Below, one piece after another: positions 9,798 through 57,421 of a stretch of 57,830 nucleotides of DNA. Within the stretch, counting starts at the first letter, position 1; every line of letters starts with the position of its first letter. This stretch comes from Herpetosiphonaceae bacterium (GTDB taxonomy: Bacteria > Chloroflexota > Chloroflexia > Chloroflexales > Kallotenuaceae), in NCBI GenBank assembly GCA_036374795.1, contig DASUTC010000367.1:1-57830 (forward strand), given 5' to 3'. The translations under genes and the position numbers were made by a program. A model generated the notes under the pieces. The model saw only the letters and a list, made by a program, of their open reading frames with translations, was not told the origin of the DNA and searched no databases.

Positions 9798-10022
9798 GTG
9801 GACGAACGCTGTATCAAGCAAAGCAGCAAACCTGCCATCAGCAAGCCAGCGCCCGAATCGCCCATCGTCACAGCCGCGCAACGGTACGCCGCCAATCAGC
9901 AGCGGATCGCCTTTCTCCGCCAAGAACAGGGACGAATCCAGCAGGCAATCGAAGACAATATTATTGAGGCGCACGAACTCCGCGCCCGCCTGATCACGCT
10001 GGTCGAAGGGCAGGCGAGCTAA
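9798..10022 (+). CDS. Small coiled-coil protein
   Basis: 74 aa, GTG start behind GAAGGGGGATAG. The second half (AANQQRIAFLRQEQGRIQQ...EAHELRARLITLVEG) is a heptad-type coiled coil. Its stop overlaps the glycosyltransferase start. It is the first gene after leader element A; a partner role for the glycosylation genes is only inferred. Confidence 0.6.
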   Translation: MDERCIKQSSKPAISKPAPESPIVTAAQRYAANQQRIAFLRQEQGRIQQAIEDNIIEAHELRARLITLVEGQAS

Positions 10023-11230: not shown

Positions 11231-11439
11231 ATGAGGTGCGCTGGTTTGTGGGATGGGGAACGCTTGAGCAGATGCGTGAGCGGATTCCTGACTTCAATGA
11301 ACCGATCGAACATGGGCCATTCCTGATCATCACCGAAGGCGATCGGGTGATGGTATTCGGCTTCGCTGCTGTGCAAGAAATGGTAGCGGCATACGCTCAG
11401 GTTGTTGAGCGTGTTCGTGAAGGCGGGCAACATGCCTAA
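11227..11439 (+). CDS. Hypothetical small protein in glycosylation operon
   Basis: 70 aa, overlapping both neighbours (ATGA with the GT4 gene, 8 nt with the next gene). It begins MNEVRWFVGWGTLEQMRERIPDF and appears to be a small alpha/beta protein without membrane segments. No family recognised; tight coupling indicates it is translated with the transferases. Confidence 0.6.
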   Translation: MNEVRWFVGWGTLEQMRERIPDFNEPIEHGPFLIITEGDRVMVFGFAAVQEMVAAYAQVVERVREGGQHA

Positions 11440-12715: not shown

Positions 12716-13011
12716 GTACGCGAGAAGTCCGAATATCAGCTGAGGTGTTGCTGATGATCACACAGCAGGGCGCGACGCTGGAAACCACCGACCGGATCGC
12801 TACCTGCATCGAAGGCGTATCAAGTACAGCAGTAGTGACCGGTCTGCACCTTGAAGCAAACAATGTGGTCGTTGTTTCGTTCCATGATCCGCAGGCCGAG
12901 CAGGACGGCGAGCAGCGGGTCATGTGGACACAGCGCACGAAAGAACGCGCGCCGACCGTCTCAACCGAGGGCGCGGCGTGGGCCGCTGAGGTGCCGCATG
13001 GCCGTGATTGA
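12712..13011 (+). CDS. Hypothetical protein between glycosyltransferases
   Basis: 99 aa from ATG 12712 (ATGA overlap with the previous stop). It starts STREVRISAEVLLMITQQG and has a short alternating hydrophobic section (VVTGLHLEANNVVVVSFHDP), with a charged, probably disordered tail. It overlaps the next gene by 14 nt. No recognised family. Confidence 0.55.
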   Translation: MSTREVRISAEVLLMITQQGATLETTDRIATCIEGVSSTAVVTGLHLEANNVVVVSFHDPQAEQDGEQRVMWTQRTKERAPTVSTEGAAWAAEVPHGRD

Positions 13012-14353
13012 TTGCGTGACCTTCTTCAATGAACTCGACATATTAGAGATCCGCCTGCGCGAGCTGTACGACACGGTCGATCGCTTCGTGCTGGTCGAGG
13101 CCACGCACACGCACGCGGGCCAGCCCAAACCGCTGTACTTCGAGCAGCACAAAGAGCGCTTCAAGGACTGGCTACCGAAAATCAGACATATCATCGTCCA
13201 CGACCTCCCGGCAGGCGACGGTCTGCCCGGCACGCGCCGCCGCGAGATGGCCCAGCGCAACGCGATTCTACGCGGACTGTTCGACGCCGATGATACCGAC
13301 GTGGTGCTGATCTCCGATGTGGACGAGATCCCGCGCCGCTCCCACATTCCCCGCACGCTCGATCCCGGCGTCGTGGCGGTGTATGACCAGACACTCTCCT
13401 ACTACAACCTGAACACGACCTGCACGAACGCCCGCTGGCGCGGCACGCGCGCGGCTCCCGCCGCCGACGTGCGCGCCCTCTCCCCCCATGTGATCCGGTA
13501 CGGGCTGGGGATGCCCGACGAACACTACCCCCGCTATGCACTCGTCGAGGGCGGCGGCTGGCACCTCTCCTACTTTGGCGACGTGGCGCACATCCAGCAG
13601 AAGATGACCAGCTTTTTGCACCAGGAACTGATCGACGACACGACGACCGATCCCGGCACGATTGCCGAGCGTATAGCGGCAGGCGTGGACGCCTACGGGC
13701 GCGACGACCAACAATTCGAGATCGGCCCGGCGGCGGATCTCCCGGTCGCGGTCCTGCTCGATCCGATGCGCTGGGTGCATCTGTTTCATCCCGACTGGCG
13801 GCCCGACTTTCACGAGGACTGGTACAGCGGCACGCAGGCGCTGGTTGTGGCCGAGTTGGCCCGGCATGCACCCGCCGGCGGGGCGCTGGTTGAGATCGGC
13901 TGCTGGGAAGGGCGCTCGGCGTTTGTGATCGCGCAGGCGGTCGCGCCGCGTACCCTGCACTGTGTTGACCACTGGCGCGGCAATGAGGCGGAAGGCGACG
14001 ATCATCCGGCGACGGTGGCGGCACGGGAGCGGGATGTGTACCGCACGTTTCGCCAGAACATGACGCGCCTGACAGCGGGCGAGTTTGTGCCGATTATTCT
14101 TGGCTGGGAAGAATGGATCACCGGCTGGCGGCAGGGGAATAATCCGGCGATCGCCTTCCTGCATCTCGACGCCGCGCACGACTATCAGAGCGTGTTCGAC
14201 TGTTTAGAGGCCGTCAAGCCGCACCTTATACCGGGCGCGATCCTGTGCGGCGATGATTGGTATCATCGCGAGGTTATGATGGCCGTGACCGATGCGCTGG
14301 GCGAGCGCGTGCAGGTGCTCGGCGGGCGCTTATGGGTGTATCAGCATGACTAA
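12998..14353 (+). CDS. Bifunctional GT17-like glycosyltransferase - SAM methyltransferase
   Basis: 451 aa from ATG 12998. The N-terminal half matches the GT17 (beta-1,4-GlcNAc-transferase III-like) family: VIDCVTFFNELDILEIRL, DRFVLVEATHTHAGQPKPLYF, RRREMAQRNAI and VVLISDVDEIPRR as the DXD-like motif. The C-terminal half (from about residue 285) is a second Methyltransf_24 domain: GALVEIGCWEGRSAFVIAQ, HCVDHWRGN and AFLHLDAAHDYQSV. It repeats the GT-plus-methyltransferase plan of the gene before the preceding one, but with an unrelated GT family. Confidence 0.85.
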   Translation: MAVIDCVTFFNELDILEIRLRELYDTVDRFVLVEATHTHAGQPKPLYFEQHKERFKDWLPKIRHIIVHDLPAGDGLPGTRRREMAQRNAILRGLFDADDTDVVLISDVDEIPRRSHIPRTLDPGVVAVYDQTLSYYNLNTTCTNARWRGTRAAPAADVRALSPHVIRYGLGMPDEHYPRYALVEGGGWHLSYFGDVAHIQQKMTSFLHQELIDDTTTDPGTIAERIAAGVDAYGRDDQQFEIGPAADLPVAVLLDPMRWVHLFHPDWRPDFHEDWYSGTQALVVAELARHAPAGGALVEIGCWEGRSAFVIAQAVAPRTLHCVDHWRGNEAEGDDHPATVAARERDVYRTFRQNMTRLTAGEFVPIILGWEEWITGWRQGNNPAIAFLHLDAAHDYQSVFDCLEAVKPHLIPGAILCGDDWYHREVMMAVTDALGERVQVLGGRLWVYQHD

Positions 14354-14534
14354 ACAACGAATTGCCGTGTACGGCATTGCAATCGCGATCTTCCTCGCAT
14401 CCGTGTACGTCACGATCTCTTTTCTCTACGTAGAACATGGCTGGATTCCCGGCATTCTTACCTTGTTGATCGGGATTCTCGTGCCGTCGGCATTGATAAC
14501 GATGGCGAATCATCGGGGATCACATGGCGATTAA
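14346..14534 (+). CDS. Small two-TM membrane protein
   Basis: 62 aa with two hydrophobic helices (about residues 6-26 and 31-52) and short charged ends. Its start overlaps the GT17 gene by 8 nt and its end overlaps the tail-terminator gene by 11 nt. Size and topology fit a holin-like or superinfection-type membrane peptide, but the lysis cassette lies elsewhere, so the role is open. Confidence 0.6.
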   Translation: MTKQRIAVYGIAIAIFLASVYVTISFLYVEHGWIPGILTLLIGILVPSALITMANHRGSHGD

Positions 14535-14994
14535 TACGACGATCAATTTGCTCCAGGCGGTGAATCGGGGCGTGCCGGGCGTGAAACGCGCCCCGGTGCT
14601 GGACAAGTACCCGACGCAGCTCAACACCGCCGATCTCCCGTTCGCGATCTCGTGGCCCGCCGATGGCACCTGGCACCATGAGGGCATGGGCGGGGCGCTC
14701 AAGCGCGAAGATCGCACCTATCGCATCCTGGTCTATACCGAGCCGCTCGGCCAAAACGACATCCCGACGCGCGCCGCCGCCGCCGCCGTGCTGCTGCAAC
14801 GGTTCAAGGAGACGTATCTCGATCCGGCGACCGTGGCGCTGGCCGATCCGAGCGGGAGCAATCCCTATCAGGTCACGGTCGAGGAAGGCGCGCAGAGCCC
14901 ACATAGCGACGGCGGGCTGGTGAGCAATCTTGTGTTCGGCGGCGTGCCGTTTCACGGCTTTGAGCTGCGCGTGCGCGTGCGCGAGCTATGGTAA
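14524..14994 (+). CDS. Tail terminator / tail completion protein
   Basis: 156 aa placed just before the tail-tube gene. The arrangement of an N-terminal helix (NTTINLLQAVNRGVPGV), a central beta region with YRILVYTEPLGQND and a helix AAAAAVLLQRFKETYLDP resembles tail-terminator proteins that cap the tube. Assignment rests on order, size and this general pattern rather than a strict motif. Confidence 0.6.
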   Translation: MAINTTINLLQAVNRGVPGVKRAPVLDKYPTQLNTADLPFAISWPADGTWHHEGMGGALKREDRTYRILVYTEPLGQNDIPTRAAAAAVLLQRFKETYLDPATVALADPSGSNPYQVTVEEGAQSPHSDGGLVSNLVFGGVPFHGFELRVRVRELW

Positions 14995-31986: not shown

Positions 31987-32190
31987 TTAGCTCTCCATCG
32001 CCTGCTTGAGCGCCTTCCAGCGCCTGAGATATAACTTCGCCCGCGCCGCATCGCCCCGCCGTCGCCAGGCCATCGCGGAGACGAGCTGCAACGCAATCCA
32101 GGGATCATCCGGCGACAGCGCGCCGCGCACAAACGTCTCGGGCGTCGGCGTGCTGGGCACGGGCCGGGGTGGGGTCGCTCGGCGGGCCAT
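31987..32190 (-). CDS. Hypothetical small basic protein
   Basis: 67 aa between DnaB and the methyltransferase, overlapping the helicase stop by one base. Disordered Pro/Thr N-terminus, then a TPR-like helical pair (PWIALQLVSAMAWRRRGDAARAKLYLRRWKAL). No named family. Confidence 0.55.
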   Translation of the reverse strand: MARRATPPRPVPSTPTPETFVRGALSPDDPWIALQLVSAMAWRRRGDAARAKLYLRRWKALKQAMES

Positions 32191-33521
32191 TAGAAACCCT
32201 CCACGCTTTCGTACGGCGCAAGGCTCTGGAATCGCGTCGTGCGTGTATCGAAGAACAGCGGCACCACACCGAGCGGACCATGACGATGTTTTGCGATATG
32301 GATCTCGGCGATGCCTTTTAGATCGGTATCTTTGTCGTAGAGTTCTGGCCTGTAGATAAACATGACACCGTCCGCGTCCTGCTCCAGACTCCCGCTCTCA
32401 CGGAGGTCGGCAAGCATAGGAACATGACTCGTGCGGCCTTCCACCGCCCGCGACAGTTGCGACAGCGCGATGATCGGGATATTCAGTTCGCGCGCCAGCT
32501 GCTTCAACCCCTTCGAGATCTGGCTGACTTCCTGCACGCGGTTCTCGCTCTTACCGCTGCCGCTCATCAGTTGCAAATAGTCAATGATTAGGAGATCTAA
32601 GCCATGCTCGGCTTGCAGGCGGATCGCCTTCGAGCGCACTTCATGCACGGTCACGCCGGGCGTGTCGTCGATGTACAGCGGCAGCTCGGAGATCCGCGCC
32701 ATCGCGTCCATAACCCGCGCCAGCTCGTCCTGGGTCACGCGCCCGTTGCGCAGGCGCTGCCCGTCGATCCCGGTCTCACCCGCCACCAGGCGCTGGATCA
32801 ACTGCTCCCGGCCCATCTCCAGCGCGAACACGCCGACCGAGAGGTGCAGCTGCATCGCGATATTGAAACCAATCCCCATCGAAAACGCGCTTTTACCGAC
32901 ACCAGGCCGCGCGGCCAAGATCCAGAGATCCGACTTATGCAGCCCGCCGGTATGGCGATCGAAGTCAATAAATCCGGTCGGCAGCCCGCCGATCCCGCCG
33001 CTGGCCGTCGCCGCTTCCAGGAACGTGTAGTACTCGTCCACGGCCTGCGCTGCCGATACGAAACCGCCAGCGCTTCGACTCTGGCTGACCTTATGCAGTT
33101 CGGCCTCTGCCTCTGCGATCGTGGCATCAACGTCGCCGGATTCGTCATAGCCCAGCGCGGCGATTTTGCCGCCGGCGCGAATGAGCCGCCGCAGCGTCGC
33201 CGTGCGCTCCACGATCCGGGCGTAGTACTCGACATGAAAGGCGGTCGGCACCGAGTTGGACAGATCGACCAGGAACGGCACGCCGCCCAGCTGCTCCAGT
33301 CGCCCCGCGCGGCGCAGCTCGTCGGCGACGGTCGTCAGGTCGGGCGGCACGCGCCGGCGATAGCACGCCTGCTGCGCCTCGTAGATCCAGGCGTGTTTCT
33401 CGATGTAGAAATGCTCAGCCGCCAGCCACGCCTCAATCGGCACAATGGCCTCACGATCCAGGAGGATCGCGCCAATGGTCGCGCGCTCGGCGGTCTCGTT
33501 ATGCGGTAGCGTGCGCTCCAT
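32190..33521 (-). CDS. dnaB: Replicative DNA helicase, DnaB-like
   Basis: 443 aa hexameric 5'-3' fork helicase. N-terminal domain PHNETAERATIGAILLD; RecA-like C-terminal domain with AARPGVGKSAFSMGI (Walker A), LLIIDYLQLMSG (Walker B) and IPIIALSQLSRAVEGR, then DLRESGSLEQDAD. Start ATG 33521 overlaps the stop of the loader gene by one base. Complete by family length. Confidence 0.95.
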   Translation of the reverse strand: MERTLPHNETAERATIGAILLDREAIVPIEAWLAAEHFYIEKHAWIYEAQQACYRRRVPPDLTTVADELRRAGRLEQLGGVPFLVDLSNSVPTAFHVEYYARIVERTATLRRLIRAGGKIAALGYDESGDVDATIAEAEAELHKVSQSRSAGGFVSAAQAVDEYYTFLEAATASGGIGGLPTGFIDFDRHTGGLHKSDLWILAARPGVGKSAFSMGIGFNIAMQLHLSVGVFALEMGREQLIQRLVAGETGIDGQRLRNGRVTQDELARVMDAMARISELPLYIDDTPGVTVHEVRSKAIRLQAEHGLDLLIIDYLQLMSGSGKSENRVQEVSQISKGLKQLARELNIPIIALSQLSRAVEGRTSHVPMLADLRESGSLEQDADGVMFIYRPELYDKDTDLKGIAEIHIAKHRHGPLGVVPLFFDTRTTRFQSLAPYESVEGF

Positions 33522-34216
33522 CAGCGGCCTCGCTTTCGGTAGTCGGCGGCGATGACCAGCAGTTCCTCGGCCGCGCCCGCGATCCGGCTGCCGATGCGTC
33601 CGCTGAGCGCGTCGATCCGCACGTTGGACGTAAAGATCGTGGGTCGCTGCGCCAGCATCCGGGCATTGACGATCACGAATAGTTTTTCCTCGGTCCAGTC
33701 GGTGGCGTTCTCGGCAGCGATGTCGTCGAGGATCAGCACCTGCACGCGCTTCAGGGTGTCGAGCCGCTCGTGCGCGGTGCCGTCGTCGTAGCCGGCGCGA
33801 ATGAAGTCGAGCAGATCCGGCGTGCTGGCATACGCGATCATATGGCCGCGCTCGGCCAGGCGATGCGCGGTCGCCGCTGCCAGGTGGCTCTTCCCGCTGC
33901 CGTAGGGGCCGCACAGGTACAGCCAGCCCAGCGGCTGATCGGCGTACGCTTTGGCCCGCCGCCACGCAAACCGCAGGGACTCGCGCTGCTCGTACGGGCT
34001 GAACGTATCGCCACACCACTCGACGGCCTGCGTCGGGCGATCAGGATCGAACGTCGCAAACGTGCAACTGGCCAGCGTGCCAAGCTCCTGCTCCAACCCG
34101 GCCAGCCGGGATCGGACCTGCACCCGCTGGCGCTCCTGGGCAATCTCGCAATCACAAGCGACGATCCCAGCGGGCGACAGACGCCAGCCGGTCCCGTTGC
34201 ATCCACACTCAGCCAT
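33521..34216 (-). CDS. Helicase loader, DnaC/DnaI-like ATPase
   Basis: 231 aa from ATG 34216 (GGAGG nine bases upstream). A short Cys-rich N-terminus (ECGCNGTG, CDCE) precedes the AAA+ domain: YLCGPYGSGKSHLAAATAH (Walker A), VQVLILDDIAAE (Walker B), TIFTSNVRID (sensor 1). It delivers the adjacent DnaB to the origin with the initiator just upstream. Confidence 0.9.
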   Translation of the reverse strand: MAECGCNGTGWRLSPAGIVACDCEIAQERQRVQVRSRLAGLEQELGTLASCTFATFDPDRPTQAVEWCGDTFSPYEQRESLRFAWRRAKAYADQPLGWLYLCGPYGSGKSHLAAATAHRLAERGHMIAYASTPDLLDFIRAGYDDGTAHERLDTLKRVQVLILDDIAAENATDWTEEKLFVIVNARMLAQRPTIFTSNVRIDALSGRIGSRIAGAAEELLVIAADYRKRGR

Positions 34217-35237
34217 GCGCGCCACCTCCCGACGGTTGCAAGAAGGCCAGCTTCGACTTGTCGATCTTCGGCCCGGCGTCGCCGTCGCCGCTCAGCACGC
34301 CCCGACGACGACCGGGCGTGTCTGTGCGCTGATTCGGGCGATCCATCGGCTTCTGGTAGCGGGCGGTCATCTTGCCCACGCTGGCGCAGTTCCAGCCGTT
34401 CAACTGCCAGTCGTCGAGCACCTGCTGCCAGCGGTCGAGATCGCGCACCTTCTCGGCGATGTCGCGCATCTGGATCTCGTTGGGGTAGCGCCCGAACGCG
34501 GCCTGGTAGAGCTTGATCGCCTGCTGGCCGGTCGCGTCGAACTGCGCGAGCAGCGATTGATGCTTGGCGGCCTTGCTCGGTGGCTTGGGAGATTGCAGGT
34601 TATCGGCAACGGGTGCGGCGTCGATCTGTTTGGGCGCTCGTTTCTTCGATTGCCCATCATCAGCCTTTTTTTCAACCGGGGCGGGGGCGGCGTCCGCTGC
34701 AAGCGGCGCTAGTTTCCCCCCTCTCTGATTCTTTGGATTCTGATTCTTCTCTTCTTTTTCTTTGCCTATACTGGCGTATAGGGGGGGGCTATATTCCTGT
34801 ATAGGGGAGGGGGTATCATTCTGTATAGGGCTATACGATTGTACAGGGGTATCATAATGTATAGTCCCTTGATCGTTCTTCCTGAGCCAGATCTCCCAGG
34901 CACGGCGGCTGAACCCAGCAAAATTGTACTCGTTCGGTTTTCCCTCGCTGCCGTGATCGATCACCTCAAGCATCCCCTTTTGCTTGAGGCTCTTTGCTAG
35001 GCGGCGCGGCATCTGCGCATCGGCATAGCCCATGCGCTTGCCGATCGTGGCAAGGCTCGGTGTTGCGCGCCCGCGCTCGCTCTCAAAGTGAAACTGGCTC
35101 AGGTGGATAATGAACATCATCTCAGCGGGTGAGATGCCGAGTTCAGCGTAGCTGTCCAGCAGGAAATCATACACGGGTACGAACTTGAGTTTATCAAGGA
35201 CGTGTATTCCCCAGCGGAAGCTAAAATGATCGTTCAT
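34209..35237 (-). CDS. Replication initiator / replisome organiser
   Basis: 342 aa. Winged-helix N-terminus (GISPAEMMFIIHLSQFHFESERGRATPSLATIGKRM split over residues 33-70, with PRRLAKSLKQKGMLEVID). A repeat-rich linker encoded by iteron-like DNA (residues about 124-155) follows, and the C-terminal DnaD-like end reads AFGRYPNEIQMRDIAEKV and WQQVLDDWQLNGWN. Order initiator-loader-helicase matches lambda O-P logic, with the origin inside the initiator gene. Confidence 0.8.
   Translation of the reverse strand: MNDHFSFRWGIHVLDKLKFVPVYDFLLDSYAELGISPAEMMFIIHLSQFHFESERGRATPSLATIGKRMGYADAQMPRRLAKSLKQKGMLEVIDHGSEGKPNEYNFAGFSRRAWEIWLRKNDQGTIHYDTPVQSYSPIQNDTPSPIQEYSPPLYASIGKEKEEKNQNPKNQRGGKLAPLAADAAPAPVEKKADDGQSKKRAPKQIDAAPVADNLQSPKPPSKAAKHQSLLAQFDATGQQAIKLYQAAFGRYPNEIQMRDIAEKVRDLDRWQQVLDDWQLNGWNCASVGKMTARYQKPMDRPNQRTDTPGRRRGVLSGDGDAGPKIDKSKLAFLQPSGGGAHG
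34770..34866. other. Iteron-like repeats, probable replication origin
   Basis: Five GTATAGGG-type units on the plus strand: GTATAG at 34776, 34799, 34823, GTACAG at 34841, GTATAG at 34859. Intervals are 23, 24, 18 and 18 nt, set in G-runs alternating with AT-rich blocks. It lies inside the initiator gene, as in lambda. Confidence 0.65.
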
Positions 35238-41588: not shown

Positions 41589-41612
41589 AAGACGCTATCT
41601 AGAGGGGTGCAG

Positions 41613-42077
41613 ATGAACGATCCGAAACGCGATGCAAAACTTGCCGGATTTGCGAAAAACCTGGAAGCCGAGATTGATCGGCGTGGCTGGAATAAATCGG
41701 ACTTTGCCCGGCGGCTCAATGTTCAAGCCTCTCAAGTTACACGTTGGTTAAGTGGTCACTTCGAGCCCGAACTGCGGACACTCTACGCGATGGCGCAAGT
41801 CTTTGCGCGCCACGATCGCGACCCCATGCATGGCGTGGATGAGCCGTCGCCCGACGCGGTTGCGCGCTGGCTGGATCGGCTGTTTCGGTGGTACGCGGAA
41901 GACAAAGGGCTGCCGCCGACGGCTAGCACGGTTATGACTGAATTGGTGGATGCCTCCCCGGCCATCGTTCAGGTCATCGAAGCCCTTGCAGCCATCCCGC
42001 CAGCAGACCTGCGGGCGGTAGCGCAGCAAGTTGAGCGCTTGCAGTCGCATCGGAAGCAACACGACGGATCGAAGTAA
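41613..42077 (+). CDS. XRE-family phage repressor (CI-like)
   Basis: 154 aa from ATG 41613 (GAGGGG upstream). Residues about 8-62 are an XRE HTH (GFAKNLEAEIDRRGWNKSDFARRLNVQASQVTRWLSGHFEP split across helices 1-4); the helical C-terminus probably dimerises. There is no LexA-type self-cleavage domain. Divergent from the ribbon-helix-helix gene across the operator, it is the best candidate for the protein binding the ATTCATGCAA sites. Confidence 0.75.
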   Translation: MNDPKRDAKLAGFAKNLEAEIDRRGWNKSDFARRLNVQASQVTRWLSGHFEPELRTLYAMAQVFARHDRDPMHGVDEPSPDAVARWLDRLFRWYAEDKGLPPTASTVMTELVDASPAIVQVIEALAAIPPADLRAVAQQVERLQSHRKQHDGSK

Positions 42078-42174
42078 TCAGGTTTTCAAACGCGGGTCGG
42101 GCGGCTTCGTCGCTGCGTGCCTGCATCAGTGTGAGTTCGGCGCACACGCTCTCTACAACGTCCTGGTTGTCCAT
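41974..42174 (-). CDS. Possible small helical protein antisense to the repressor 3' end
   Basis: 66 aa from ATG 42174 with AAGGAT upstream (MDNQDVVESVCAELTLMQARSDEAARPAFENLI in helices). It overlaps the repressor's last 104 nt in antisense, which is unusual. The composition is protein-like; kept at low confidence. Confidence 0.3.
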   Translation of the reverse strand: MDNQDVVESVCAELTLMQARSDEAARPAFENLITSIRRVASDATASAQLAALPPAGLLAGWLQGLR

Positions 42175-42233
42175 GGTCCATCCTTCACCTTTGGGGGGTG
42201 CCCGACCTGGCGATCGGTTCGTCCTGCATATGT

Positions 42234-42283
42234 GGCACACGATCACGGCGAGGGGTGCCGTGACAGAACGGTGATCGTGTGCC
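42234..42283. other. Large inverted repeat in immunity region
   Basis: GGCACACGATCAC (42234-42246) and GTGATCGTGTGCC (42271-42283) are perfect 13-nt arms. The interior offers a competing CACGGC/GCCGTG hairpin (42244-42262), so two alternative structures exist. No T-run. It could be an operator, cruciform site or RNA switch between the repressor and the next gene. Confidence 0.6.
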
Positions 42284-42325
42284 TTGTTCCTATAAACGAT
42301 CTGAATCTCTTCGAGGATACGGGTG

Positions 42326-42343
42326 AGCCGAATATATTCGGCT
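42326..42343. promoter_or_regulatory. Perfect 18-bp palindrome, likely operator
   Basis: AGCCGAATATATTCGGCT is fully self-complementary, AT-rich at its centre, and lies 49 nt before the GTG of the XRE-like gene at 42392. Exact palindromes of this size usually bind a dimeric regulator, here possibly that gene's own product. Confidence 0.65.
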
Positions 42344-42391
42344 GATCTCATTCTACACGTCCACAACCTGTAGCGCAAGGGGTTTTTATTT

Positions 42392-42820
42392 GTGCCAACA
42401 GACAACGCGACTCTCTCTCCAGATATGCCACTGCCGACGCTGGCAGAGATCGTCGATTGGTTGTTTACGACCTACCGCGATCAGGATGGTCGCACGCTCC
42501 TTCCGCGCGATGTCGCGCTGTACGGCGACAATGTAAGCGTGGACATTATTCAGAAGCTGCGGAGCGGCAAGGCCGACAACCCCACCGCCCGCGTGATTGA
42601 GGCGATCTGTTTGGCGTTTCAATTGCCGCCGATTCTGCTCTTCCCGAAGCTCTGGCCCCTGACACTGCTCTGGGTGCCGCCGAATATCCCCGATCGCGCG
42701 CCGTTCCCCGTCGCCAACCAGTTCATTCATGCCGAGCACCCGTTCTACAGCAATCCGTCGAGCCCCTACCGGATCTGGCGCGATGCCCAACAACAGGATG
42801 CATCAGGGTCGGATGAATAG
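42392..42820 (+). CDS. XRE/HTH-like regulator
   Basis: 142 aa, GTG start. LAEIVDWLFTTYRDQDGR, VSVDIIQKLRSGKADNPTARVIEAICLAFQLPPIL has the helix pattern of an XRE-type domain preceding a Pro/aromatic C-terminus. The 3' end overlaps the opposing methyltransferase gene by 18 nt. A second regulator next to the repressor suggests a decision circuit. Confidence 0.55.
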   Translation: MPTDNATLSPDMPLPTLAEIVDWLFTTYRDQDGRTLLPRDVALYGDNVSVDIIQKLRSGKADNPTARVIEAICLAFQLPPILLFPKLWPLTLLWVPPNIPDRAPFPVANQFIHAEHPFYSNPSSPYRIWRDAQQQDASGSDE

Positions 42821-43585
42821 CCCGGCAAACCCGATCTTGTTCTGGTTCTCCTCGGTGTCGAGCTGCCGGTAGCGGCCATGCTGGCGAAAGAACTGCTCCG
42901 TGGGCATCAGTCCGCCCTGGTACGGCTGCCACGGGCGCATCAACTCGGTGATCTGTGCGGCTGAGCGTGGGTAGAGGGTCTGGCCGCTCTGCTGGTAGCC
43001 CTTCTTGATCGCCGTCGTGCCCTGGTCGCCGGGATCGTCCCAGCCGGTCACGGTTTTGAGCGATCCCGGTGCGGCAAAGTCAAAGGTCGCCTGCGTGATC
43101 GCCTGGATCTCCTCGTCGGATTCGATGAAATACCAGAGCCCGGTTGCATGGACGCCGATCCGCCGGGCTGCGCCGAAGTGTTGGGCCGCAACGGCAAGGA
43201 TCTGCTGGATGTTGCGTACGTCCTCATTCGTGTAAGCGATGTTTGGACGATCGCCTAGCAGCTGCCGGCTCCACGCAATCACAAATGGATCGATGTCGTT
43301 GTAGAGGATCGGCGCGTTCGGCAGGTAGTCGTGCAGGTAGTCCTCTTCGGGCACGCTGGACGCCAGATCCATCGCCGCCTCCAGCCCATGCTCGGCGTAG
43401 ATCTGCCCGGCCAGCGCGGACGCGGCGCGGATGGCCAGCATCCCCTTATAGGCGAATTTCCGGTGTTCCATGATCATCCGGGCACGCTCATGATCGGCGG
43501 GCGTGGCGATCCGGCTGGCATCGCCATAATTGACCGCACTGAACGTACCGGGGATCGTCGCTCCTCGGTCCTGTGGATCTGCCAT
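42803..43585 (-). CDS. SAM-dependent methyltransferase, DUF574 (Methyltransf_19)-like
   Basis: 260 aa from ATG 43585 with AAGGAA upstream. YLHDYLPNAPILYNDIDPFVIAWSRQLLG split at residues 96-125 matches the strand-helix pair VxYVDxDPxVLAHAR of the family, and PRSAAQITELMRPWQPYQGGLMP matches its C-terminal end. The Gly-rich SAM loop before it is less clear. Family members occur mostly in actinobacteria and related hosts; the substrate is unknown. Confidence 0.55.
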   Translation of the reverse strand: MADPQDRGATIPGTFSAVNYGDASRIATPADHERARMIMEHRKFAYKGMLAIRAASALAGQIYAEHGLEAAMDLASSVPEEDYLHDYLPNAPILYNDIDPFVIAWSRQLLGDRPNIAYTNEDVRNIQQILAVAAQHFGAARRIGVHATGLWYFIESDEEIQAITQATFDFAAPGSLKTVTGWDDPGDQGTTAIKKGYQQSGQTLYPRSAAQITELMRPWQPYQGGLMPTEQFFRQHGRYRQLDTEENQNKIGFAGLFIRP

Positions 43586-43639
43586 GCTGGTTCCTTGCTG
43601 CGGGGTACTTCTATATTCTATCAAACCACCCCGCCTTTT

Positions 43640-43676
43640 GTGAAGATCTGACCACCCTCGGTGGTGAAATCTTCAC
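43640..43676. promoter_or_regulatory. 37-bp imperfect palindrome between divergent genes
   Basis: GTGAAGAT...ATCTTCAC (8-bp outer arms) and ACCACC...GGTGGT (6-bp inner arms) lie between the methyltransferase gene and the HTH/coiled-coil gene. Further on, GACAGC/GCTGTC (43712-43727) overlaps a TTGACA. Together they look like operator/centromere-type sites for the HTH protein that follows. Confidence 0.6.
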
Positions 43677-43746
43677 CAAATCAGTGTACCGCGATCCGTC
43701 GCGGCGTCGCTTGACAGCGCAGGCTGTCGCTTCTAGTGTATACCCT

Positions 43747-44238
43747 ATGCCAGAATCTGACTACATCTCAGGCGAAGAAGCCGCCGCGCTGATCGGCGTG
43801 AGCAAACGCACGGTCGAGCGCTGGGCTACCGATGCAACCAAGAATCTGCACGTTTCCCACGCGCCGGGCGGCAAGCAGTTGTATCTGCGGGCGGATGTGG
43901 AGCGCCTGGCCGATGAGTACCAGGCGGGAGAGGCGGCGCGCGCCCGCGCGGCGCAGTTCAGCCCACAGACCAAAGCGCAGGCCGAGATTATGTCAGAGGC
44001 GACGATCCAGCACATTGCCGACCTGGAGCGGCAGCTCTTCGCCGCTTCTCATGAGATCGGGCGGCTGACCGGCGTGCTGGAGCAGCAGCGGCTGCTGACT
44101 GATGATGCGCTTGACGCACGGCGACAACTTGCCGACGCTGAGGCGCGGGCGGGGCATCTGGAGCAGGAGGCCGAGCGGTTGCGCGAAGAGTTGGAACAGG
44201 CGCGGCGACCGTGGTATAAGCGGTTGTTTGGCGGGTAG
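43747..44238 (+). CDS. HTH / coiled-coil DNA-binding protein with amphipathic tail
   Basis: 163 aa from ATG 43747. ISGEEAAALIGVSKRTVERWATDA with wing KQLYLRADVERLADEY is an HTH_17 domain; residues 75-150 are an unbroken coiled coil; the end RRPWYKRLFGG is a short amphipathic anchor. The plan (small HTH, long coiled coil, Trp/Lys tail) is seen in plasmid maintenance and partition-associated proteins, fitting a plasmid-like lifestyle. No ParA partner was found. Confidence 0.65.
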   Translation: MPESDYISGEEAAALIGVSKRTVERWATDATKNLHVSHAPGGKQLYLRADVERLADEYQAGEAARARAAQFSPQTKAQAEIMSEATIQHIADLERQLFAASHEIGRLTGVLEQQRLLTDDALDARRQLADAEARAGHLEQEAERLREELEQARRPWYKRLFGG

Positions 44239-44262
44239 CGACAGGTTGCGACATGGCGCGGT

Positions 44263-44294
44263 ACCACTCGTCAGCATTGGCGGGTGGTTTTATT
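44263..44294 (+). terminator. Intrinsic terminator after the HTH/coiled-coil gene
   Basis: ACCACTCG (44263-44270) pairs with CGGGTGGT (44281-44288), one G-U pair, followed by TTTTATT. It ends the 43.7-kb unit before the next promoter. Confidence 0.65.
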
Positions 44295-44301
44295 GTGCCT
44301 G

Positions 44302-44359
44302 AAATTGCCGTAAATCTTTACCAGATTTATATTGACTTTATTATAATTTCCGATATAAT
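44302..44359 (+). promoter_or_regulatory. Palindromic promoter of small-gene cassette (44.3 kb)
   Basis: TAAATCT-TTACC-AGATTTA inverted repeat (44311-44329), TTGACT (44332-44337), 16 nt, TATAAT (44354-44359), with ATTATA/TATAAT arms across the -10. The upstream block matches 20182-20210 almost base for base. Downstream ACATAGCAAGTAA recurs at 47130. Confidence 0.8.
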
Positions 44360-44391
44360 AATGACATAGCAAGTAATAAGGAGATGCGGAC

Positions 44392-44652
44392 ATGACTGCT
44401 AAGCCAAGCAAGAAGACCATCGATATGCAGATTGCAAGCGAAGGCGCTGGTATGGTTGGGAAGTACAAGCTCGAAGTGTTCACCGTCAAGTCTGGAATGA
44501 ACATCGAACAAACGTTTATCTTCGACCGTGAACACGCCGACGAAGCAGCGGACATCATCGACAGCAACGAAGCGGTAACAAGCTGGACCTCGCACTATAT
44601 CATTCGAACGAACAAGGACGATTGCAATACCCTTGATGACCTGAACTTTTAG
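44392..44652 (+). CDS. Small hypothetical cassette protein
   Basis: 86 aa, GGAGATGCGG upstream. A compact alpha/beta sequence (GMVGKYKLEVFTVKSGMNIEQTFIFD, EAADIIDSNEAV). AT-richer than the late genes. First gene behind the palindromic promoter; unknown function. Confidence 0.6.
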   Translation: MTAKPSKKTIDMQIASEGAGMVGKYKLEVFTVKSGMNIEQTFIFDREHADEAADIIDSNEAVTSWTSHYIIRTNKDDCNTLDDLNF

Positions 44653-44661
44653 GAGGAATAC

Positions 44662-44910
44662 ATGGGCGGTGATGGGAGCGGCAATCGTTCGGGCAAGCCC
44701 CGCGCACCAGGAGCGGGGCGCAAGCCTCAGCGAGAAGCACCAAAGAAAATTGAGATTGCTCAGGACCGACCGTTGCGGATTGGCTTTGTGGACAATGATG
44801 GCGGCTACAGCCCGATCGCAGCAGGCCCGGCGATTATCAAACGTACCGAATCAGGCACGCGCCAGATTGTTGTCAAAACCAGCGACGGCGAGATCAGGAT
44901 TAGTTTGTAG
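44662..44910 (+). CDS. Small hypothetical cassette protein
   Basis: 82 aa, AGGAGG seven bases before ATG. Disordered basic start (GGDGSGNRSGKPRAPGAGRK) then a small beta domain (PLRIGFVDNDGG, RQIVVKTSDGEIRISL). Nine nt after the preceding gene. Not recognised. Confidence 0.55.
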   Translation: MGGDGSGNRSGKPRAPGAGRKPQREAPKKIEIAQDRPLRIGFVDNDGGYSPIAAGPAIIKRTESGTRQIVVKTSDGEIRISL

Positions 44911-44975
44911 CACGCGCGGCGCAGCCTGAGTGCAGCCGCCGCGCGAGATTACATGCGTTTTTATGGAGGTTCACT

Positions 44976-45161
44976 ATGAACGAACAACAGGACGGTGCAG
45001 GTTGGTACGTGGTCCGGCAGTACGAGCCGAACAGCAACGCGGAATCGTATCGTGAGTCGGTCGAATGGTTTGATGAATACCCTCCCAGGAATGAGGTCAT
45101 GGAAACCTATCGCGGCCCGTTCCCGTCGCGCTCGGTGGCCGAACAGCAACAAGCGGTCTAA
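44976..45161 (+). CDS. Small hypothetical cassette protein
   Basis: 61 aa, TGGAGG upstream. Begins NEQQDGAGWYVVRQYEP with a YRGPFPSRSVAEQQQA end, the pattern of short conserved plasmid/phage proteins that fold as a single beta-alpha unit. Last gene before a strong terminator. Confidence 0.55.
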   Translation: MNEQQDGAGWYVVRQYEPNSNAESYRESVEWFDEYPPRNEVMETYRGPFPSRSVAEQQQAV

Positions 45162-45170
45162 AATGTGACA

Positions 45171-45204
45171 CGAAAACCGCCCCAATCGGGGCGGTTTTCG
45201 TTTG
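45171..45204. terminator. Strong bidirectional intrinsic terminator
   Basis: Perfect 13-bp arms CGAAAACCGCCCC / GGGGCGGTTTTCG with an AATC loop, A-run on one side and T-run on the other. It ends the 44.4-45.2-kb unit and would also stop the antisense transcript starting near 45345. Confidence 0.9.
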
Positions 45205-45258
45205 CCCTGCGTGCGCCATGTCGCGGCGTCGTGCGCTGTCGCGATCTGTCGTAGAACG

Positions 45259-45269
45259 TGCTATACTAC
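45259..45269 (+). promoter_or_regulatory. Promoter of the translocase gene (extended -10)
   Basis: TGC-TATACT-AC with the -10 at 45262-45267. The 125-nt leader contains a strong GGGC..GGGGTCGC / GCGA..CCCC..GCCC hairpin and an AGCCGCCG/CGGCGGCT hairpin just before the start codon. Confidence 0.65.
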
Positions 45270-45349
45270 GGCTAGTAAATGGTTCGGGCCGGGGTCGCTT
45301 GCGACGCCCCAGCCCTGGACTAGCGGACTGAAAGCACCAGCCGCCGCCA

Positions 45350-45360
45350 GTAGTATAGCA
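45350..45360 (-). promoter_or_regulatory. Opposing promoter for a possible antisense RNA
   Basis: GTAGTATAGCA is the exact reverse complement of the 11 nt of the sense promoter (TGCTATACTAC). On the minus strand it reads TGC-TATACT, aimed at 45345-45171. The transcript would end at the 45171-45204 terminator, about 165 nt. Confidence 0.5.
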
Positions 45361-45391
45361 GAACACCGGCGGCTCCAACAGGAGCCTACTC

Positions 45392-47008
45392 ATGCGATCG
45401 AAGTCTTCTCGCGTCTCCGTCCTCGGCTCGGCGTCCTTTCTCGTGCTGGCCCTCGTCTTTGCTCTCGTGGTCTTTACGCTCGTCTCGTGCGGGCAAACCC
45501 CTGCCGAGCGTGTGCTGGCCGATCAGCGTGCGCGCTTCGATGCGGCGCAGTATGTCGCGCAGCAGCAGGCGCTTGCGCCCGTCAAAACGAGTGCGACCCG
45601 CATCCTGATCGGTGCGGGCGCGTTTGCGGGCGCTGCGGTCCTGGCTGCGGTGGCGGTTGTCGCCGGTGCGGGCGCATGGTACGCGCTGGCGGTCGCGCAG
45701 CACAAGGCGCGGCTGATCTATGCGCGCGACGGGATGCTGCCCGTGCCCGTGCGGGAACTGAGCGCGACGATCGCGATTGCCTCGATTGCGGACGAGCACC
45801 AGACGCGCCGGGCGATCGGTGCTCCGGCGGTCAACGTCCCGCACACGCTGCACTACGCCCCGCATGTGCGCGATGCGCTGCCGGCTCCTGCGGCAGCGGC
45901 CGAAGATCGCGACGACGATGCGCCGCAGCTGCCCAGCATTGTCGAGCTGTCGCGGGTGCGGGATCGCATCCAGCCCGCGCACCTGGCCTACGGCGTGCTG
46001 GCGAGTGGTGAACTGCTCCAGCTCAAGCTCGGCCACGGCTACCATGGGCTCTACCATGGTGACACGGGCTCAGGCAAGACGAATGCGATCAACAGCATGA
46101 TCGCGCAGCTGCATCATATGGTGGCGGCGGGCGTGCCGCTCCAGCTCTACGCCGCCGACTATAAGCGCGAACTGTCGGCGACCTGGAGCCGCTCGGCGCT
46201 GTTTGAGTCCGGCATCCTGACCGAGCCCGGCGAGATTGCCGAGATGTTGGGCGAGCTAGGCGGCATGGTCCGCACGCGTTATGAACTGTTCGAGGACACG
46301 TCGCGGCGCTATGAGCGCGTCGTGGAGAACTACAGCGCGTATGCCAGCGTGACCGGCGAGACACTGCCGGTGGTGATTTGCATCGTCGATGAGCTGAACG
46401 CCGCGCTTGAGGCGTCCCGCAAGAACGCGCCGCTGGCCGAGAACCTGCGGTCGTTGCTTCAGATTGGCCGGGGCGCGGGCGTGCTGGTGCAGGGCGGCTT
46501 TCAATACATGCGGGCGGAAAACTTCGGGCGCGACGGCTCCAAGCAGTTTGTCACGCGGGCGCACTTCGGCGCGTATGACCAGACCGCCGTCGCGATGCTG
46601 TTCGGCTCCAAGGTCGATCATAACGCTTTACAGCAGGTGATCGACGGCACGCCGGGCCGGGGTATCATCAAGACCGTGCGCCAGCCCACGCCGCAGCCGT
46701 TCCAGGCGCTGCGCTGCGGGGAGCGGGATATTCTAGAGGCGATCGATCTGGTGCGGGATCGTGAAACTGAGGGAAATATGCCGACGTTTGCGGTAGCGCA
46801 TCCGAAACACCTAGAAACGATCGAAACGGTTTCGCAGCAGCCCAAAAGCGGCGCGATCCTGGACCCTGAAATCGTGAAACGGCTCCGCAGTCAGCCCACG
46901 CCGCTCGGCAAGAAACAGATTATCGAGGTGTTGACCGGAGCCAAGCCGGGCGGATCAACGCTCTACACGCAGGCGAGCCGGGAGTATGATCAGATTGTCG
47001 CGGTGTAA
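45392..47008 (+). CDS. FtsK/HerA-type membrane DNA translocase
   Basis: 538 aa from ATG 45392 (AGGAG upstream). Hydrophobic N-terminus ending FTLVSCGQ, which also reads as a lipobox; second TM at about residues 72-98; then the RecA/FtsK motor with Walker A GDTGSGKTNAI (about 223-233) and Walker B VVICIVDEL (about 326-334), followed by SLLQIGRGAGVLVQGG and RAHFGAYDQTA. It resembles TraB/FtsK pumps of conjugative plasmids and mobile elements more than chromosome-segregating FtsK, which is longer and has a gamma domain. Confidence 0.8.
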   Translation: MRSKSSRVSVLGSASFLVLALVFALVVFTLVSCGQTPAERVLADQRARFDAAQYVAQQQALAPVKTSATRILIGAGAFAGAAVLAAVAVVAGAGAWYALAVAQHKARLIYARDGMLPVPVRELSATIAIASIADEHQTRRAIGAPAVNVPHTLHYAPHVRDALPAPAAAAEDRDDDAPQLPSIVELSRVRDRIQPAHLAYGVLASGELLQLKLGHGYHGLYHGDTGSGKTNAINSMIAQLHHMVAAGVPLQLYAADYKRELSATWSRSALFESGILTEPGEIAEMLGELGGMVRTRYELFEDTSRRYERVVENYSAYASVTGETLPVVICIVDELNAALEASRKNAPLAENLRSLLQIGRGAGVLVQGGFQYMRAENFGRDGSKQFVTRAHFGAYDQTAVAMLFGSKVDHNALQQVIDGTPGRGIIKTVRQPTPQPFQALRCGERDILEAIDLVRDRETEGNMPTFAVAHPKHLETIETVSQQPKSGAILDPEIVKRLRSQPTPLGKKQIIEVLTGAKPGGSTLYTQASREYDQIVAV

Positions 47009-47035
47009 ATGAATTGATCCAAAAAGGGGAGGGAG

Positions 47036-47061
47036 CCGCGCCGCAGGGCGCGGTATTTATT
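47036..47061 (+). terminator. Intrinsic terminator after the translocase gene
   Basis: CCGCGCC / GGCGCGG stem (47036-47042, 47047-47053), GCAG loop, then TATTTATTT. Located 28 nt beyond the stop codon. Confidence 0.75.
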
Positions 47062-47142
47062 TACCAAATCTCGACAAAATTGGTCCTTCTAGGCACTTGA
47101 CTTATTGTACGTCATGGCGTACAATAACGACATAGCAAGTAA
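47061..47142 (+). promoter_or_regulatory. Palindromic promoter of small-gene cassette (47.1 kb)
   Basis: TTTACCAAATCT (a variant of the 20.2/44.3-kb block), TTGACT (47097-47102), 17 nt, TACAAT (47120-47125). Perfect 8-bp arms ATTGTACG / CGTACAAT (47104-47125) fill the spacer and include the -10. ACATAGCAAGTAA follows as at 44.3 kb. Confidence 0.8.
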
Positions 47143-47153
47143 GGGGAGCGACA

Positions 47154-47531
47154 ATGATTTCAGTGCTGACGAATAACACGATCATCATCCGACGTAAGGA
47201 TCTGACGAACGATCTGGTACAACAATTTCAAGCGAAGCATGGCTCCGGCAGCGATCATGTGTGGCGCGAACTGCCAGCAGGCTTTCAATCCGGCCTTGAT
47301 GACAGTCCTGGATCGTATGACGATGCTGTTGAACTTGATGGCGATCCGAATATGCCACGCGGAACGACTTACCGTGGCGTTATCTATGAGACAACCAACG
47401 CTGATATGCAGCGCGATGCAGAATTAATTTCCGCGTATCTTGGACAGCGCGACCATATGGGCTCTGAGCAGTGGCACACGATGATGCGGCAGAAGTTGCA
47501 GGAACGAGGCTACCGCACCAATGACCACTGA
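47154..47531 (+). CDS. Hypothetical cassette protein preceding an HTH gene
   Basis: 125 aa, AGGGGAG upstream. Acidic alpha/beta protein (RRKDLTNDLVQQFQAKHG, YETTNADMQRDAELISAYLGQ). Overlaps the HTH gene by 11 nt, the same overlap as in the 20.3-kb pair. Not recognised. Confidence 0.6.
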   Translation: MISVLTNNTIIIRRKDLTNDLVQQFQAKHGSGSDHVWRELPAGFQSGLDDSPGSYDDAVELDGDPNMPRGTTYRGVIYETTNADMQRDAELISAYLGQRDHMGSEQWHTMMRQKLQERGYRTNDH

Positions 47532-47706
47532 GCAAGCCGCTACAGTGCTTGGACTATCCCTTAGAACCGTCCAGGCGCATATTAAGCGCGGCAATCTCAA
47601 GGCTGAGAAGCGCGGGCGCGATTGGTGGATTGAAGCCGACGAAGTAGAGCGCTTTCGCCAAACGCGGCGCGGGCGCGGTAAGCCAAAACAGGAGCCGACG
47701 CCATGA
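47521..47706 (+). CDS. Small HTH DNA-binding protein
   Basis: 61 aa: MTTEQAATVLGLSLRTVQAHIKRG with wing DWWIEADEVERF and a basic RRGRGKPK tail. An excisionase-like HTH, likely regulating the palindrome at 47104-47125. It overlaps the membrane-protein gene by 4 nt. Confidence 0.75.
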   Translation: MTTEQAATVLGLSLRTVQAHIKRGNLKAEKRGRDWWIEADEVERFRQTRRGRGKPKQEPTP

Positions 47707-48590
47707 ACGACCAGCGCGGGCGCTTTCTCGACTTCTTCACGCCGAAGCATACGATCCTGCTGCTGCTGACCGTGCATCAGTGGATCACCCTCTACATGGG
47801 CCATAAGAAGCATCTCAAGATCGACTCGCCCTACAGCCTGGAGGGCGCGTATGCGATCACGGGATCGCTCTCGATCGAGCTGCTGCTGATCTTCGTGCTG
47901 CGCTACGCCGAGCTGTACGGCGCGACGGCCTGGACCTGGGCGACGATCGGCCTGATCACGGTGTACTCGTCGATCATGTCGGTCTATGCGGTGTGGGAGT
48001 TTGGTCCGATCGCTTTTCTTGCGGCGGTGCCGCCGCTGATGATTTGTACGATTAGCATGAACTTCTATGCGACCGCACGCACGCAGCAACATCGTGGCGG
48101 GCTCTGGTATCCAACCGCACGCCCCCGCACGCGCCGGCGCTGGGCATGGCTGCGATTCTGGCAGTGGCGCATCTGGCCCCGCATGACGTGGCGTGTTCGT
48201 GCCTCCGAAGGTGCGCCGCAGGATGCCCCCGCACCGATCGATCTTCCGGTGGACGTGCGACCTGATGCGACGCCGCACGACGCCGCGACGGTGCCGCAGG
48301 CCGATCCCGACGACCGCACGCCCGATCCGGCCCCGCCGCCGATCCCGGCTGCGCTCCCGCATGAGCCGCACGTCCCGATCGTGCGCTATGGTGCGGGGAG
48401 TGACGAGGCCCGCATCGTCGCGCATCTGGAAACGTGCGGGCGCATCGGGCGGCAAGATGTTGAGTCGCTGCTGGGCGTGCGGGAGCGGGCGGCGCAGAAC
48501 AAGCTGCGGGCGCTCGTCGAGGCGGGCGTGCTGGCGACGGACGGACGCGGCGAGTATTGGCGGAACGGGGTTATGGTGGAGGTGACATAA
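47703..48590 (+). CDS. Multi-TM protein with C-terminal winged helix (Spd/DUF2637-like)
   Basis: 295 aa. Four hydrophobic segments in residues 15-120 (HTILLLLTVHQWITLYMG; LSIELLLIFVLRYAELYG; WATIGLITVYSSIMSVYA; IAFLAAVPPLMICTIS). Then come a Trp/Arg stretch, a long Pro/Asp linker and a winged-helix domain (EARIVAHLETCGRIGRQDVESLLGV, LRALVEAGVL). TM bundles with a C-terminal HTH beside FtsK-like pumps recall the Spd spread proteins of actinobacterial conjugative plasmids. Homology is a guess. Confidence 0.55.
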   Translation: MNDQRGRFLDFFTPKHTILLLLTVHQWITLYMGHKKHLKIDSPYSLEGAYAITGSLSIELLLIFVLRYAELYGATAWTWATIGLITVYSSIMSVYAVWEFGPIAFLAAVPPLMICTISMNFYATARTQQHRGGLWYPTARPRTRRRWAWLRFWQWRIWPRMTWRVRASEGAPQDAPAPIDLPVDVRPDATPHDAATVPQADPDDRTPDPAPPPIPAALPHEPHVPIVRYGAGSDEARIVAHLETCGRIGRQDVESLLGVRERAAQNKLRALVEAGVLATDGRGEYWRNGVMVEVT

Positions 48591-49081
48591 TGACAGAACA
48601 GATCGAACCAATGACCAAAGAGGACGCGCTGGCGCATGTGGCACACTATGCGGTGCTCCACTGGTTTGCGGCTCCCGGCAGTCCCGCGCCACATATCTAT
48701 CGTGTGCGGGCGTGGGCCGTGCGCGACGATGGATCGGACTGGCAGCCTGCCGAGCCGAACTGGTGGATCGGGATTGACGATCCAAGCGATCAACTTGAGG
48801 AGATGGGCTACCACTTGTTTGATGACGGGCAGATTGAGCGCGATCCGTCTGACTCAGGGCCAGAGCAGCCCGCCGACGATGAGTGCATGATTTTTGACTT
48901 CACGATCCCCCTGCTTGAAGCCGCACTTCAAGAGCAGATCCGATTTTACAGTTGGTGCGCTCGTGGAAAACAACCAGGCGAGGAAGCCTACCGGGCAGAG
49001 TGTGCGGCTAAGGCTGAAGCGCTGCAATTCGCGCTTAACTTACTGCGTGGCGAATCGTCATCAGTGACCTATATGTCCTGA
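48590..49081 (+). CDS. Hypothetical acidic protein
   Basis: 163 aa from ATG 48590 (TAATG overlap). Acidic alpha/beta, EDALAHVAHYAVLHWFAAPG, WWIGIDDPSDQLEEMGYHLFDDG, CMIFDFTIPLLEAALQEQI. It ends the rightward 47-49-kb unit. No family recognised. Confidence 0.55.
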   Translation: MTEQIEPMTKEDALAHVAHYAVLHWFAAPGSPAPHIYRVRAWAVRDDGSDWQPAEPNWWIGIDDPSDQLEEMGYHLFDDGQIERDPSDSGPEQPADDECMIFDFTIPLLEAALQEQIRFYSWCARGKQPGEEAYRAECAAKAEALQFALNLLRGESSSVTYMS

Positions 49082-57346: not shown

Positions 57347-57421
57347 TGGTCTGTAGCTCAACCGCAGAGCACTGGTCTCCAAAACCAGAGGTTGCAGGGT
57401 CAAGACCTGCCAGGCCAGCCA
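57347..57421 (+). tRNA. tRNA-Trp (anticodon CCA)
   Basis: 75 nt with encoded CCA. Acceptor TGGTCTG/CAGGCCA, D arm GCTC/GAGC, anticodon stem CTGGT/ACCAG with loop CTCCAAA (anticodon CCA), T stem GCAGG/CCTGC with loop GTCAAGA. Position 54 is G instead of the nearly universal T, so the T-loop is atypical. One isolated tRNA placed between gene groups and within a leader. Confidence 0.88.

Follow-up and report, generated by a model that had tools for sequence, protein, structure and literature searches.

This report concerns three genes of a phage genome from a Chloroflexales bacterium (Herpetosiphonaceae bacterium, GCA_036374795.1) and their possible part in maintaining that phage as a plasmid. 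The window, which is the whole stretch of 57,830 nucleotides analysed, is the entire contig C367 (DASUTC010000367.1) of a 7.75-Mb draft genome. A sequence-only reading had pointed to genes for a helix-turn-helix (HTH)/coiled-coil protein, an FtsK-type pump and a multi-transmembrane protein with an HTH-like end between positions 43747 and 48590, and all three proved to be real open reading frames (ORFs) with a coding signal. These genes, and a palindrome beside the first of them, are as follows.

43747 to 44238, plus strand: HTH/coiled-coil protein of 163 aa with an HTH_17-like N-terminus, a coiled coil and the tail RRPWYKRLFGG; a candidate membrane-tethered partition protein
43636 to 43680, no strand: imperfect palindrome of 45 bp, with two 21-nt arms (86% complementary) and a 3-nt spacer, upstream of 43747-44238
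45392 to 47008, plus strand: membrane-anchored FtsK-family ATPase of 538 aa, with transmembrane segments at about 16-34 and 71-89, Walker A at residue 223 and D333-E334 as Walker B
47703 to 48590, plus strand: membrane protein of 295 aa with three to four transmembrane helices, a Pro-rich linker and a C-terminal winged-helix-like end

Comparison of the contig ends showed that the first 141 bases of the window are exactly the same as the last 141, giving a circular unit of 57,689 bp, a feature that the sequence-only reading had overlooked. A de Bruijn assembler run at k = 141, the highest value that MEGAHIT uses, is expected to leave an overlap of this length when it closes a circle. The gene order also fits a circle, with TerS, TerL and the portal gene lying towards the right end and the genes for the major head protein and the tape measure on the left. 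No tyrosine recombinase/integrase was detected on the contig by a search that evidently works, since it matched 14 times in other parts of this genome, and the earlier proposal of a phage without integrase is borne out in this respect. Serine recombinases were covered only by Pfam scans of the predicted genes, and the window genes scanned gave no Pfam match to integrase, ParA, ParM or relaxase. No integrated copy came to light, contig-end searches of the same draft genome having found no second copy of the contig. Integration as a prophage was rejected for this contig because it is circular and lacks a tyrosine integrase. The window is the complete, circular, tyrosine-integrase-less genome of a tailed phage of a Chloroflexales bacterium, with its own TerS/TerL and virion genes.

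The ATPase contains an FtsK_SpoIIIE motor, which Pfam matched at 46 bits (E 5.2e-12; cut-off 24 bits). A Foldseek search with its model gave E values of 3e-9 to 2e-8 for TcpA/FtsK, with TcpA of pCW3 and FtsK as the best matches, followed by EssC/EccC. The model was built from seven sequences and has a predicted local distance difference test score (pLDDT) of about 60-83 in its best motor blocks and 52.9 over the whole chain; the TM-scores for TcpA and FtsK are modest (about 0.41-0.49, by target), so that the fold match places the ATPase in the superfamily, not in a subfamily. By Pfam, profile-profile comparison and fold, the ATPase is FtsK-like and belongs with neither the packaging nor the pilus ATPases. 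It had been described as TraB/FtsK-like; the FtsK part of that description is upheld, whereas membership in the TraB branch found no support, the motor alone scoring 7.0 bits against the TraB profile and 48.8 bits against chromosomal FtsK. Profile-profile scores were equal for TraB and chromosomal FtsK and gave no separation.

The same motor scored 32 bits against a Chloroflexota mobile-element FtsK family, which is defined here by an N-terminal two-transmembrane domain with conserved GLLPV and PH-x-x-Y-x-P. The N-terminal 197 residues of the window ATPase scored 44.3 bits (E 1.1e-12 at Z 1000) against the profile of this domain, which was built without the window sequence; 200 shuffles reached at most 8 bits, and TraB and chromosomal FtsK were negative. 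Within the tree set the motor reaches about 23% identity at best, and we read the ATPase either as a mosaic or as an early branch. The sequence of 45392-47008 gives no sign of a classical gamma domain. The viral contig and genome contig collections held no close relatives of this FtsK, and the phage and plasmid collections gave weak generic FtsK matches only.

Relatives of the ATPase, members of this family among them, lie in integrative elements and beside partition genes. In Candidatus Chloroploca asiatica, a compact element (L018:1-6839) combines FtsK with a tyrosine integrase, an XRE-like regulator and a rolling-circle Rep (REP_ORF2-G2P with the HYH motif), and is bounded by 47-bp repeats (45/47 identical) resembling a tRNA 3' end. 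A second element (L042:5227-14746) carries an integrase, FtsK and a D5_N/DUF5906 primase between 97-bp repeats (79% alike), the first of which overlaps tRNA-Gly, and contig L041 carries FtsK with two integrases. By gene content, all three are sets like those of actinomycete integrative and conjugative elements (AICEs) as defined in PMC3218068. On other contigs FtsK adjoins a partition gene, namely a ParM-like gene (PHROG partition protein, E 1e-31; L075:8329-11243) on a circular, phage-like contig (127-bp end overlap) with TerL and no Phage_integrase match, and a ParM/actin-like gene on a phage-like contig (L043:8611-11963). The occurrence of ATPase relatives in integrative elements and beside ParM-like genes supports a maintenance role of the window genes.

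In the partition proteins RocS, pSK1 Par and TubY, an HTH at the N-terminus is joined by a coiled coil and, at the C-terminus, by an amphipathic helix; this helix binds the membrane or, for Par, is predicted to do so (PMC11500499, PMC7762940). The 43747-44238 protein agrees with the pSK1 Par type in layout and tail, and its amphipathic tail is a probable membrane anchor. Its N-terminus matched HTH_17 with an E value of 5e-5, under Pfam's own cut-off, and its tail RRPWYKRLFGG is nearly the same as KKGFWSRLFGG of pSK1 Par. Among 3,250 distinct ORFs such a tail was found only in the window protein and in five fetched Par proteins, this background being all DNA fetched and thus a small, non-random set. 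The near-match of the two tails is a new observation of this analysis. The protein may work like Par; it is called Par-like in working only, because the DUF536 core is absent, and is not asserted to be a Par. The palindrome, given as 37 bp in the sequence-only reading, is present but 45 bp long, and exact matches to its 17-nt core in the window are its two arms only. It is a natural candidate for a putative operator or centromere of the protein. Across the palindrome, a gene for a Methyltransf_19 protein (S-adenosyl methyltransferase, E 5e-19) lies divergently at 42803-43585 on the minus strand.

Two regions bear on the lifestyle of the phage.

41607 to 42820, plus strand: repressor-like region with a Cro/C1-type HTH_3 protein (41607-42077, E 2e-7) and a weak HTH_26 protein (42425-42820)
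32190 to 35237, minus strand: replication block with DnaB helicase (32190-33521), IstB/DnaC-like loader (33521-34123) and DnaD_N initiator (34209-35237)

The first of these agrees with the repressor circuit proposed earlier. Iteron-like repeats at 34776-34861, inside the DnaD_N initiator gene, are a likely replication origin and are reminiscent of the lambda O origin. A phage-plasmid is defined by virion genes and extrachromosomal maintenance; virion genes and a circular assembly are seen here. The lack of an integrase, the circle, the repressor-like region and the replication genes are compatible with an extrachromosomal prophage, short of proof.

FtsK/SpoIIIE proteins (PHROG_1358) are also known from lytic phages, where a role in concatemer handling or packaging has been proposed (PMC13299392). 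If the same held here, the phage would be non-lysogenic, its FtsK-like protein would handle concatemers or help in replication or packaging, and its HTH proteins would be regulators of the ordinary kind. The position of the module just upstream of lysis-type and terminase genes is consistent with this, and a headful phage is also expected to give a circular contig. However, the N-domain family occurs mostly on integrative or plasmid-like elements and beside ParM genes, and the phage encodes TerS/TerL of its own and has a repressor-like region. The TerL relatives found among viral contigs of IMG/VR (L046-L070) are many and very different from this phage in gene content, and neither the module nor any FtsK was detected in those searched. 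A lytic-cycle role is possible but, in our judgement, rather unlikely.

Hydropathy gives the 47703-48590 protein three hydrophobic segments, and a single-sequence model of low confidence (mean pLDDT 48.7) shows four long helices; the winged-helix-like stretch at its C-terminus is weak (phrog_142, E 0.002). A fold search with the model was dropped because the model was too poor. No relatives were found in 82 genomes of the order, and phages and plasmids yielded nothing useful. SpdB homology (hhalign probability 0.1-0.3%) and DUF2637 identity (no Pfam match at E up to 1) were rejected, and with them the suggested Spd/DUF2637 identity. The protein is Spd-like in architecture only, having about four transmembrane helices and a C-terminal DNA-binding-like end, with the HTH weak, downstream of FtsK. 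On two phage contigs (L076 and L083), FtsK is likewise followed by a four-transmembrane protein with a C-terminal HTH, read by eye without Pfam match in L076, and the phages are otherwise dissimilar; in the window, two small genes stand between. The membrane proteins of the window and L083 matched with a BLASTP E value of 0.023. The three membrane proteins do not align convincingly, so that what is conserved is order and architecture rather than proven homology, and three cases are a small number.

The order of FtsK, small genes and membrane protein recalls tra-spdA-spdB of pIJ101-type plasmids, and in four of the five Streptomyces plasmids fetched tra, small gene(s) and spdB follow in this order. 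The spd genes are highly diverse, many having no mutual sequence similarity, and TraB interacts with SpdB2, an integral membrane protein that binds DNA (PMC4170104). By analogy with TraB/Spd in Streptomyces mycelium, the FtsK-like pump and its membrane/HTH partner might move the phage circle from cell to cell across filament septa. Chloroflexales are filamentous, and members of the ATPase family reside in AICE-like elements with integrase, replicase and FtsK. Against this stand the absence of SpdB homology in the membrane protein, a motor not close to TraB, and the failure to find the predicted 8-bp pump recognition sites: no 8-mer occurs at least three times in any module intergenic space and no tandem array is found there, a test that leaves other repeat designs possible. 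The likeness to actinobacterial transfer and spread genes therefore holds for order and architecture, not for homology to SpdB or the TraB motor, and spread of this kind is unlikely. Less likely again is a fuller version, in which the prophage would be a circular plasmid whose double-stranded DNA the membrane FtsK pumps across the septa of the multicellular host filament, alongside the membrane-tethered HTH partner and the Par-like tether; if true, it would be a counterpart of Streptomyces TraB/Spd spread outside Actinomycetota and inside a virus.

The remaining features of the module are as follows, the promoter-like sites being consensus matches only.

44263 to 44288, plus strand: terminator-like hairpin 3' of the HTH/coiled-coil gene
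44332 to 44359, plus strand: sigma-70-like promoter TTGACT-16-TATAAT, serving the small genes 44392-45161
44392 to 45161, plus strand: three small ORFs of 86, 82 and 61 aa
45170 to 45201, plus strand: perfect 14-bp hairpin, terminator-like, upstream of ftsK
47035 to 47054, plus strand: terminator-like hairpin 3' of ftsK
47097 to 47127, plus strand: promoter-like TTGACT-17-TACAAT, overlapped by a 13-nt palindrome (47102-47127)
47154 to 47531, plus strand: 125-aa protein
47521 to 47706, plus strand: 61-aa HTH_17 (excisionase/MerR-like) DNA-binding protein (Pfam E 1.4e-11), missed by the sequence-only reading
48590 to 49081, plus strand: 163-aa protein

These hairpins and promoter-like sites suggest that the three main genes lie in separate units, with ftsK alone in one. 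Flanking terminators are as expected for ftsK as an independently transcribed accessory gene. The three could also be unrelated accessory genes that adjoin by chance; separate units would fit this, HTH_17 proteins are common in phages, and by hydropathy alone each phage genome has several proteins with at least three hydrophobic segments. FtsK followed by a four-transmembrane/C-terminal HTH protein in three otherwise dissimilar phages argues against it, and chance adjacency appears very unlikely. The promoters at 44332-44379 and 47097-47144 have the downstream sequence GACATAGCAAGTAA in common, like duplicated control cassettes. Elsewhere in the window, a cluster of glycosyltransferase and methyltransferase genes lies between head and tail genes (10022-14994), and a phage-borne tRNA-Trp (CCA) at 57347-57421 was the sole Rfam match.

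Taken together, the genes at 43747-48590 are most likely an accessory maintenance module of plasmid or integrative and conjugative element ancestry. We give roughly an even chance to the window being a phage-plasmid in which these accessory genes form a composite partition and DNA-translocation module; this interpretation, whose phage-plasmid part was already proposed in the sequence-only reading, draws on the circular contig, the lack of an integrase, the ATPase relatives in plasmid-like and integrative elements and beside ParM-like genes, the recurrent order of FtsK and a four-transmembrane/HTH protein, the Par-like tail and the terminators on both sides of ftsK. We infer a plasmid state in which the three proteins would act jointly. 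The HTH/coiled-coil protein would dimerise and bind the palindrome beside its own gene, and its amphipathic tail would hold it at the membrane, as proposed for pSK1 Par and RocS. The two-transmembrane FtsK-family ATPase would sit at the septum and translocate double-strand DNA, so that the phage circle is cleared or moved across the septum as it closes, and the membrane protein with its HTH-like end would tie DNA to that septal membrane site.

Several results weigh against this interpretation. Homology of the 43747-44238 protein to the Par core DUF536 was rejected, since a profile of five Par proteins gave 0.5 bits and 79 of 500 shuffles were as good, which overruled an alignment made by eye. 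Plasmid-type Rep, ParA and ParM were not detected in the window, and the circular assembly is no proof of a plasmid state because a circularly permuted lytic phage would assemble alike. In the tree the window motor falls on the FtsK/TraB side, outside the mobile-element clade, a position that is unsure because its branch is so long (3 changes per column). Among the TerL relatives, the closest (L046, 65%) carries an integrase, and no FtsK was detected in it. L083 has tyrosine recombinases besides FtsK, and the predicted signals place the three genes in separate transcription units.

Little is known about phage persistence in filamentous Chloroflexota. A virome study reported FtsK/SpoIIIE genes on phages of these bacteria, a Chloroflexus phage among them, and drew a comparison with Firmicutes phages, in which the gene was tied to spores (PMC8597652). 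The ParM-like genes, the AICE-like elements, the recurrent four-transmembrane/HTH partner and the pSK1-Par-like tail suggest, in contrast, maintenance outside the chromosome or movement between cells, and these neighbourhoods make such a role testable.

Compared with known partition systems, the 43747-44238 protein resembles pSK1 Par, RocS and TubY in its three-part layout and in the palindromic site beside the gene, and its tail is nearly that of pSK1 Par. It differs from pSK1 Par in lacking the DUF536 core and in length (163 vs 245 aa), with no detectable homology beyond HTH type and tail, and no TubZ/TubR lies near its gene. The ATPase shares its motor and best fold matches with FtsK/SpoIIIE/TcpA and a homologous N-terminal domain with the two-transmembrane FtsK family of Chloroflexota integrative elements and phages, but its motor is very divergent and closer to chromosomal FtsK than to that family.

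The resemblance to pIJ101-type plasmids and AICEs lies in the gene order, ending in a four-transmembrane protein with a C-terminal HTH-like end, and in an FtsK with an extra C-terminal helical domain. The differences are the lack of sequence homology in the membrane protein, the distance of the motor from TraB, the Chloroflexales host and the nature of the element, a phage without integrase; nor was a clt locus with the 8-bp direct repeats (TRS) of Streptomyces TraB found in the module intergenic spaces. An AICE comprises an integrase, Rep or Prim-Pol, and an FtsK-type Tra; the window, having no integrase, is not one, whereas L018 and L042 each have an AICE-like set bounded by tRNA-type repeats. 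AICEs were reported only in Actinomycetales in a 2011 survey (PMC3218068), and elements of the L018/L042 type now extend the AICE-like gene set to Chloroflexales. With the phage-plasmids P1, N15 and the plasmid prophages of the Bacillus cereus group, the window shares an integrase-less circular phage genome with a repressor-like region; it differs in having no detected Rep or ParAB, and its upkeep would rest on a phage-type DnaD/DnaC/DnaB replicon and the Par-like HTH protein.

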